Origin: Micromonospora parva
GTDB taxonomy: Bacteria > Actinomycetota > Actinomycetes > Mycobacteriales > Micromonosporaceae
NCBI RefSeq assembly: GCF_000718515.1
Contig: NZ_JNZS01000005.1
Coordinates: forward strand, 212,397 to 276,396
DNA: 64,000 nucleotides
Direction of reading: 5' to 3'
Shown here one piece after another: positions 2,420-3,192 of the stretch. The notes under the pieces were generated by a model. That model was not told the DNA's origin, ran no database searches, and was given only the letters and a program-made list of their open reading frames with translations. The translations under genes were made by a program, and so were the position numbers. Each line of letters begins with the position of its first letter. Positions within the stretch are counted from its first letter, which is position 1.

Positions 2420-3192
2420 CAGCGCCGTCCGGGGTTGTCGTGTTGACCGATCGGCTCGTCGCGCGGGGTGGGCTCGACCGGGTCGTGGCCGCGGCGGTGG
2501 CCGGGGGAGTGCGCTGGGTGGTGCTGCGGGAGAAGGACCTGCCCCGTGCCGAACGCGCCGCCGTCGCCGCCGAGCTGCGGGCGATCCTCGCCGACGTCGG
2601 CGGAACCCTCGTCGTGGCCGGCCCGGACCCGCTCGGCGGCGACGCCGTGCACCTGCCCGCCGCCGGCCCGTACCCACCGCCACCCCACCAGCTGGTCGGC
2701 CGCTCCTGCCACAACGAAATCGAGCTGACCCGCCTCACCACCGAGCACTACGCCACCATCTCCCCGATCTGGCCCACGAAGACAAAACCGGGTTACGGCC
2801 CACCCCTGGACGTCGCGGGACTGCGCAATCTGGTCGAGGTCAGCAACGTGCCAGTGCTGGCACTGGGCGGCATCGAGACACCAGAACAGGTAACCGCCTG
2901 CGTCGAGGCGGGAGCCGTCGGAGTAGCAGTCCTGGGCGCACTGATGCGAGCCAAAGACCCCGCCGAAACAGCCGCCACCCTGACCAGCGCCTATGCCAAG
3001 GCGGTCACCCCCAAGCTGACCCAAACCCGGCACGGGGTCAGCCAGGTCCCCACGTCAGGGCTGCGGCCGACCGTGCCCACGCAGGGATCAAGCCTGACCG
3101 CCCGGAGTGGGCACGGTCGGCCGCAGCCCCCAACCGCAACCAACCACGGCCCGCCGCAGCCCCAAACCGCAACCAGAGACTCAGGAAAATGA
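2416..3192 (+). CDS. TenI/ThiE-family protein with repeat-derived C-terminal tail
   Basis: 258-aa protein whose first ~195 residues are a ThiE/TenI-type TIM barrel (LREKDL near residue 37, a His in RSCHNE near residue 97, [24 protein letters not shown]). Since a bona fide thiE lies at the operon head and this gene sits directly after thiG, the most likely role is thiazole tautomerase (TenI) acting on the ThiG product; a second thiamine-phosphate synthase is the alternative. From about residue 200 the sequence becomes low-complexity Pro/Gln/Thr, encoded by the palindromic repeat at 3058-3129 and a 23-nt duplicated segment. Family members normally end before this, so the tail looks like an acquired extension. 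The stop overlaps thiD as ATGA. Confidence 0.82.
3058..3129. repeat. palindromic repeat copy 1 (23-bp arms, 26-nt conserved loop)
   Basis: Perfect inverted repeat: left arm 3058-3080, right arm 3107-3129, loop 3081-3106. The loop, starting GCAGGGATCAAGCC and ending CGCCCGGA, is identical to the loop of the element at 13193-13262, and the stem cores share GGCCGACCGTGCCC. Stem positions that differ between the two copies differ on both arms, so pairing is kept. The element lies inside the 3' end of the TenI-like gene and is read as its C-terminal tail. It may be a REP/MITE-like mobile palindrome or a structured RNA. Confidence 0.9.
3120..3175 (+). repeat. 23-nt direct duplication in the tail of the TenI-like gene
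   Basis: The segment 3120-3142 (GCCGCAGCCCC then CAACCGCAACCA) recurs at 3153-3175 with one mismatch. The first copy overlaps the right arm of the adjacent palindrome, suggesting local duplication after the palindrome arrived. It encodes part of the Pro/Gln/Thr-rich tail. Confidence 0.7.

Follow-up and report, generated by a model that had tools for sequence, protein, structure and literature searches.

Two palindromes lie in a 64,000-nt stretch of the Micromonospora parva genome (contig NZ_JNZS01000005.1, positions 212,397 to 276,396; hereafter, the window), at 3058–3129 and 13193–13262, and they raise the question of whether a repeat of this kind is a structured RNA or a palindrome propagated and maintained by an enzyme. 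The first-pass annotation, which located both palindromes, had described an identical 26-nt loop, a shared stem core, and compensated stem differences. Palindromes are indeed present at both places: the copies share the stem core GGCCGACCGTGCCC and the 26 nt enclosed by the last Watson-Crick pair of the stem, GCAGGGATCAAGCCTGACCGCCCGGA, and stem positions that differ are paired on both arms, including those beside the loop (CCCAC vs CCCGGC).

Copy 1 matches the R1 covariance model on the plus strand with 87 bits and consists of a 23-nt left arm (3058–3080), an internal loop (GCA 3081–3083/GGA 3104–3106), the apex GGGATCAAGCCTGACCGCCC (3084–3103), and a 23-nt right arm (3107–3129). Copy 2, also matched on the plus strand (84.7 bits), has the same layout with 22-nt arms (13193–13214 and 13241–13262) around an internal loop (GCA 13215–13217/GGA 13238–13240) and an apex at 13218–13237. 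The stems are thus 23 and 22 bp long. Folding energies of the two copies, computed for both strands, are −61.0 to −68.0 kcal/mol (z of −9.2 to −9.7), and none of the 200 shuffles equaled them. The annotated "invariant loop" is indeed near-invariant, but it is predicted to be folded, with two helices, GGG/CCC and TCA/TGA, above a 3×3 internal loop and with AGCC closing the TCA/TGA helix; rare double changes also occur in it. The window also contains a 15-nt tandem repeat with alternating units (7054–7187) and three 45-nt tandem repeats (25612–25746).

The two copies are not the only ones. Eleven places in the same genome match the 27-nt loop pattern with up to three mismatches, compared to 0 in the control, and a genome search with the R1 covariance model returned the same 11 places together with weaker opposite-strand matches at three of them. 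The copy numbers, the zero control matches, and the covariation described below rule out a chance palindrome.

The repeat unit consists of a stem of ~24 bp, a 3×3 internal loop, and a near-invariant folded apex of 20 nt. In a first set of 190 distinct copies, taken from the first 190 loci and having at least 45 nt on both sides, a stem score cut was passed by 178 copies (median paired length of 24), 79 of which have perfect stems. Among 203 copies passing another pairing cut, arms are 23 to 25 nt long in 166 and 22 to 26 nt long in 191. For the analysis of covariation, 229 of 255 copies reached the minimum of 19 ungapped pairs out of 24 in the stem, and from these we selected 62 with mutual differences of at least 8 nt. 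In the 30-pair structure, 97.0% of the 1860 cells are paired, a value that leans upward because copies were chosen for at least 19 of 24 stem pairs; the corresponding values are 66.6% in shuffles and 33.2 to 49.3% with slid partners. Cells changed on both sides number 519 vs 152.9 in shuffles, and the covariation score is 0.725 vs 0.167 in shuffles and at most 0.157 with slid partners. The stem covariation noted between the two window copies therefore extends to further copies. The number of pairs with both-side changes, 23 of 30, is no better than in shuffles (21.2; 45 of 500 reach 23).

The apex fold receives thin support from this alignment because apex pairs hardly vary there, and its support comes from variants found elsewhere. 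A double change from C5/G12 to G5/C12 occurs in Trueperella, in an Actinomycetaceae metagenome-assembled genome (MAG), and in genome G846, in all of which stems were seen; the Actinomycetaceae apex variants are ATGAAGCCTCACC and ATGAAGCGTCACC. At the level of the apex, the first G and the last C of GGG/CCC are replaced by A and T (AGG...CCT) in several Micromonosporaceae. Changes that break a pair are also found: T4 is changed to C in 5 of the 190 copies, and in Trueperella there is one copy in which GGG has become AGG opposite an unchanged CCC. In two copies of the Actinomycetaceae MAG G764 (L358 and L364), a third apex form was observed in which TCAAGCCTGA is kept and the surroundings are changed.

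The internal loop was tallied in 241 copies that passed a stem check, out of 263. It is GCA/GGA in 143 and GGA/GGA in 65 of them, and in 4 it is closed to Watson-Crick pairs. The closed loops suggest template-switch correction, through which paired changes could arise without selection. They speak in favor of a purely selfish mobile palindrome, in which a non-RAYT enzyme would recognize the single-stranded apex hairpin, the arms would be kept complementary by quasi-palindrome template switching, and placement at stop codons would be harmless insertion; taking into account the evidence presented below, we consider this reading possible though rather unlikely. A strand signal was sought in G-T vs A-C mismatches, and the inference was dropped because the raw excess (73 vs 38) was gone after de-duplication (53 vs 38, P = 0.14).

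The distribution of the repeat is patchy. The pattern was matched in 20 of 41 genomes searched, M. parva included, all 20 of them in the genus of the window. Within Micromonosporaceae, the 22-nt core was present at up to two mismatches in 199 of 354 genomes, again including our own, compared to 0 with the reversed pattern; the carriers are spread over 16 of 44 genera, and copy number ranges from 0 to 30 per genome within one genus. The exact 20-mer was found in at least 120 stretches of public genomes. Among the matches listed, those outside Micromonosporaceae came from Trueperella bonasi, an Actinomycetaceae MAG, and an Actinomycetes MAG; the other genera listed we take to be Micromonosporaceae. 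These three genomes have 8, 6, and 7 places, respectively, at up to three mismatches, 5, 4, and 6 of which have the exact apex. In the same six-genome search, the reversed control gave one match each in G767 and G768, where four 3-mismatch matches lack a hairpin, so matches at this level are unsafe alone. In a sample of 200 genomes from the T. bonasi family, 5 (this species included) have the apex or its C5/G12 variants. A sample of 396 genomes from the phylum, searched at up to one mismatch, contained 2 with a match, M. parva and one other of its genus. Such patchiness suggests spread between lineages and is also what a selfish palindrome would produce. Carriage by phages or plasmids was rejected, as the exact 20-mer was absent from the viral contigs scanned and copy 1 had no blastn match in plasmid and phage collections at E values up to 1.

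In line with the initial failure to recognize a named family, no Rfam match was found in the window at the gathering threshold, and assignment to a known Rfam family was rejected on this basis. At a relaxed threshold, the matches overlapping the element at three loci all belonged to microRNA families and were below threshold. The articles listed by searches of the open-access literature with apex strings of 13 to 14 letters were unrelated by title, and topic searches yielded no description of the repeat in Micromonosporaceae among the matches listed.

ERIC and Correia (NEMIS) elements have terminal inverted repeats around a core; compared by description, the repeat studied here differs from them in having a free stem under a fixed apex. 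According to PMC10969869, both are short inverted-repeat elements located at gene ends and can alter mRNA levels via RNase III or RNase E. Rickettsia RPEs are presented in PMC10969869 and PMC3733652 as palindromes that have entered intergenic regions as well as, in frame, protein genes of unrelated function, in units of ~150 bp with a conserved peptide open reading frame (ORF). Our repeat resembles them, again by description, in its in-frame insertion in unrelated protein genes (thiE and, at two places, a Methyltransf_28 gene) and differs from them in its length of ~70 nt, its fixed apex and free stem, and its phylum.

In PMC3733652 (Di Nocera et al., 2013), GTAG and CGTC REPs are described as lying mostly behind genes and between convergent or tandem ORFs, some being intragenic, and no transposase is linked to the CGTC type. 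The repeat studied here is likewise a dispersed palindrome found behind genes and sometimes within them. However, the CGTC REPs of that article have stems of 8 to 9 bp and loops of 4 to 5 nt, while in our repeat arms of 22 to 26 nt are separated by 26 nt, a difference in stem and loop size that excludes the CGTC family as described there. Five phyla are listed there for CGTC repeats, actinobacteria not among them. A CGTC near the left foot was found in 38 of 203 copies (one of the two window copies has it, the other does not), counting only exact CGTC, while variants TGTC and CCTC are allowed in PMC3733652. The 8 nt to the left of the stem contain GTAG in 0 of 203 copies, and the 8 nt to the right contain GTAG or CTAC in 3 of 203. 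The GTAG type is excluded by this foot and by its enzyme, since Y1_Tnp (PF01797) is absent from the M. parva genome despite the 11 copies. This separation from REPs is based on published descriptions of the tagged families; untagged REP-like families, of M. tuberculosis among others, are also mentioned in PMC3733652. The kind of element is nevertheless already known, because REPs and RPEs are described in PMC3733652 and PMC10969869 as placed in the same way and as occurring within genes.

Of 121 genomes in the genus, 29 encode Y1_Tnp, ours not among them; of 13 other carriers of the repeat that we examined, 1 does so. RAYT is thereby ruled out as a general requirement. Thus, the first-pass proposal of a structured RNA or REP/RAYT-like palindrome stood insofar as the repeat is dispersed, palindromic, covarying, mostly intergenic, and sometimes intragenic, while its RAYT part did not. 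The lack of a linked transposase, with Y1_Tnp as the one family examined, also weighs against a purely selfish palindrome. Several observations favor that explanation: related stems occur at different sites; five apex matches, four of which fail the stem cut, are arranged as tandem relics with 80- to 88-nt spacing in locus L151 (1978–2339); and one gene contains an inverted pair. Such stems and tandem or inverted copies point to spread of the hairpin as a unit within genomes, whatever the enzyme.

Placement of the 190 copies was first assessed with ad hoc gene calls. Both neighbors were called at 142 copies, 11 copies are inside ORFs, and for the remaining 37 an end is too close or a neighboring gene was not called. 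The gene on the 3′ side of the element points at it in 119 of the 142 copies before de-duplication and in 44 of 52 de-duplicated sites (P = 4 × 10⁻⁷). At these 52 sites, the flanking genes are convergent in 27 cases, both opposed to the element in 17, both along it in 7, and divergent in 1, and the median distance is 59 nt to the gene on the 3′ side of the element vs 189.5 nt on the other side. The element is thus mostly found just behind a stop codon and in one orientation. Such position and orientation argue for a role at the mRNA 3′ end, and the bias (44 of 52) weighs against a purely selfish palindrome. The 144 genes pointing at an element fall into 67 clusters, and therefore no regulon is apparent.

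The orientation has exceptions (8 of 52 sites). The thiE copy runs in the sense direction, the two copies in the methyltransferase gene face opposite ways, and, judged by rough ORFs, 6 of 8 listed Trueperella copies have the main orientation while orientation is mixed in the Actinomycetaceae MAG. This variation, and the fact that both strands fold alike, would fit a structured DNA site (cruciform) for chromosome organization or recombination. Since 0 to 30 copies per genome within one genus is irregular for a general chromosome function, we regard such a site as very improbable. One T. bonasi copy (locus L320, 1501–1663) is located directly upstream of a thiamine pyrophosphate riboswitch (RF00059, 61.1 bits, above the gathering score).

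A very stable hairpin that follows stop codons and lies between convergent genes is also what would be expected of a factor-dependent transcription terminator, in which transcription of a gene would be ended by the hairpin after its stop codon. Consistent with this, only 11 of 119 copies, copy 2 included, are followed by a T-tailed hairpin in the next 150 nt (2 in shuffles and 1 in the coding control), and in MAG copy L085 five T residues directly follow the right arm. In contrast, no T-run directly follows the two window copies, and no T-rich flank consensus was found in 203 copies. Copy 2 is instructive in this respect. The minus-strand gene of a periplasmic binding protein (13311–14489; PF13458) ends 48 nt from it, and the apex on the strand of this gene reads GGGCGGTCAGGCTTGATCCC. 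Beyond the element, on the same strand, there is a T-tailed terminator-like hairpin (13135–13166), one of 3 terminator-like sites in 501 bases compared to a mean of 0.2 in shuffles, in a scan that is blind to the element itself because its loop limit is 8. As judged from this arrangement, the binding-protein transcript would pass copy 2 before reaching the T-tailed terminator. In addition, the thiE element precedes an overlapping and presumably co-transcribed thiD, and termination alone needs no invariant apex. The combination of a free stem with a fixed apex points to something that reads the apex. A terminator is therefore, in our estimate, improbable.

The conservation of copies was measured at the thiE site. 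The thiE ORF for thiamine phosphate synthase (2416–3192, plus strand; PF02581 above cut-off, TIGR00693 below its curated cut-off) reads through copy 1 in frame. The ThiE domain ends near residue 175 to 194 of 258, so that the residues encoded by the element belong to the C-terminal tail. The start of thiD, encoding HMP-P kinase (3189–3974, plus strand), overlaps the thiE stop codon (ATGA). The element is present at this site in 28 of 50 genomes, ours included, and a recognizable apex is absent from it in 22 of the 49 others, so individual copies are dispensable. The apex is read in the same frame, as GSSLTA (GSGLTA in L237), in 25 of the 28 genomes; the decayed copy of L269 is also in the main frame, the thiE ortholog of G185 reads the apex in a second frame as GIKPDR, and G203 was assigned no frame. 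The different frame used in G185 shows that the constraint there is not on the peptide, and conservation at the peptide level was ruled out.

At the nucleotide level, the thiE element differs by 0 to 3 substitutions per 74 nt in 21 other genomes, over which thiD third-position identity declines from 0.96 to 0.74. In five more distant genomes, it differs by 1 to 5 substitutions, and the neighboring thiE tail is 49 to 63% identical. L269, with 14 of 74 positions substituted, has a decayed copy, and apex changes at this site are limited to L237 (one) and L269 (four). As only copies recognizable by their apex were compared, these counts underestimate decay. Strong conservation was measured at this one site, where its independence of reading frame argues for a function in cis. 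Selfishness at the level of the copy would not hold an old orthologous copy at 0 to 3 substitutions per 74 nt.

The 22 sites without an apex were inspected by eye. Several keep pieces of an arm or of the tail, and those of L226 and L243 are clean between CCCCA repeats, which, with regard to a MITE and its target-site duplication, fits either a deletion between these repeats or an insertion that duplicated CCCCA. At the copy 2 site, also judged by eye, stem changes are more numerous, and paired (L210, L213, L215, and L286); L275 has a damaged apex and an intact stem, and in L211 and L279, the lower stem alone is kept. The apparent deletions at both sites would suit a selfish palindrome; no clear recent insertion was seen at either of them, which does not. 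In distant genomes, loss is indistinguishable from never having had the element at these two sites. A Micromonospora with zero copies (G009, locus L261) has another perfect hairpin of 13 bp in its thiE tail, with the loop GTCACGGGG; next to it comes CCCCACCGCAACC, which is also found behind true copies. Inspection of two genomes by eye had raised the suspicion of a second hairpin family sharing this loop, but it was rejected, as a single perfect hairpin (at least 8 bp) was found among the loci compared.

The Methyltransf_28 protein contains two in-frame elements in opposite directions. Among its orthologs, L172 has the second element only and L166 the first only. Both apex peptides are missing from the protein in seven genomes without the apex pattern, in some of which linker pieces could be remnants.

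Overall, the reading we favor, tentatively and at somewhat less than even chance, is that of a REP/RPE-like actinobacterial repeat, some old copies of which have been kept as cis-acting RNA hairpins at 3′ ends, with the apex read by a putative factor. The unit would be a self-contained hairpin, a stem of ~24 bp and free sequence under a near-fixed folded apex of 20 nt, that probably spread within genomes and between lineages. Copies may have settled just after stop codons or in the tails of genes where coding sequence tolerates them, and then been kept by selection on the nucleic acid. We infer action at the RNA level: the kept copies would most likely be cis-acting hairpins at mRNA 3′ ends that affect stability, processing, or termination, with the apex recognized by a putative trans-acting protein or RNA. 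That one old, measurable copy is almost unchanged suggests, as far as sequence comparison can tell, that something reads the hairpin. A bolder version, which we consider doubtful, is that the apex is the recognition site of a putative trans-acting factor that uses the stem of about two turns and any sequence as a ruler; the repeats would then represent a new class of horizontally spread 3′-end hairpin modules that were recruited behind housekeeping genes in Micromonosporaceae and, independently, in Actinomycetaceae.

Palindromic repeats of bacteria are often taken for drifting debris or for passengers of transposases. In the repeat described here, a fixed folded tip is set off unusually cleanly from a paired stem of free sequence, and the nucleotides of the repeat are conserved at one old site though read as protein in different frames. 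Together, these two properties make a concrete experiment possible, with the tip as bait for what reads it. Orthologous sites that are filled, decayed, or deleted are numerous and provide a natural test set for whether such repeats become domesticated.
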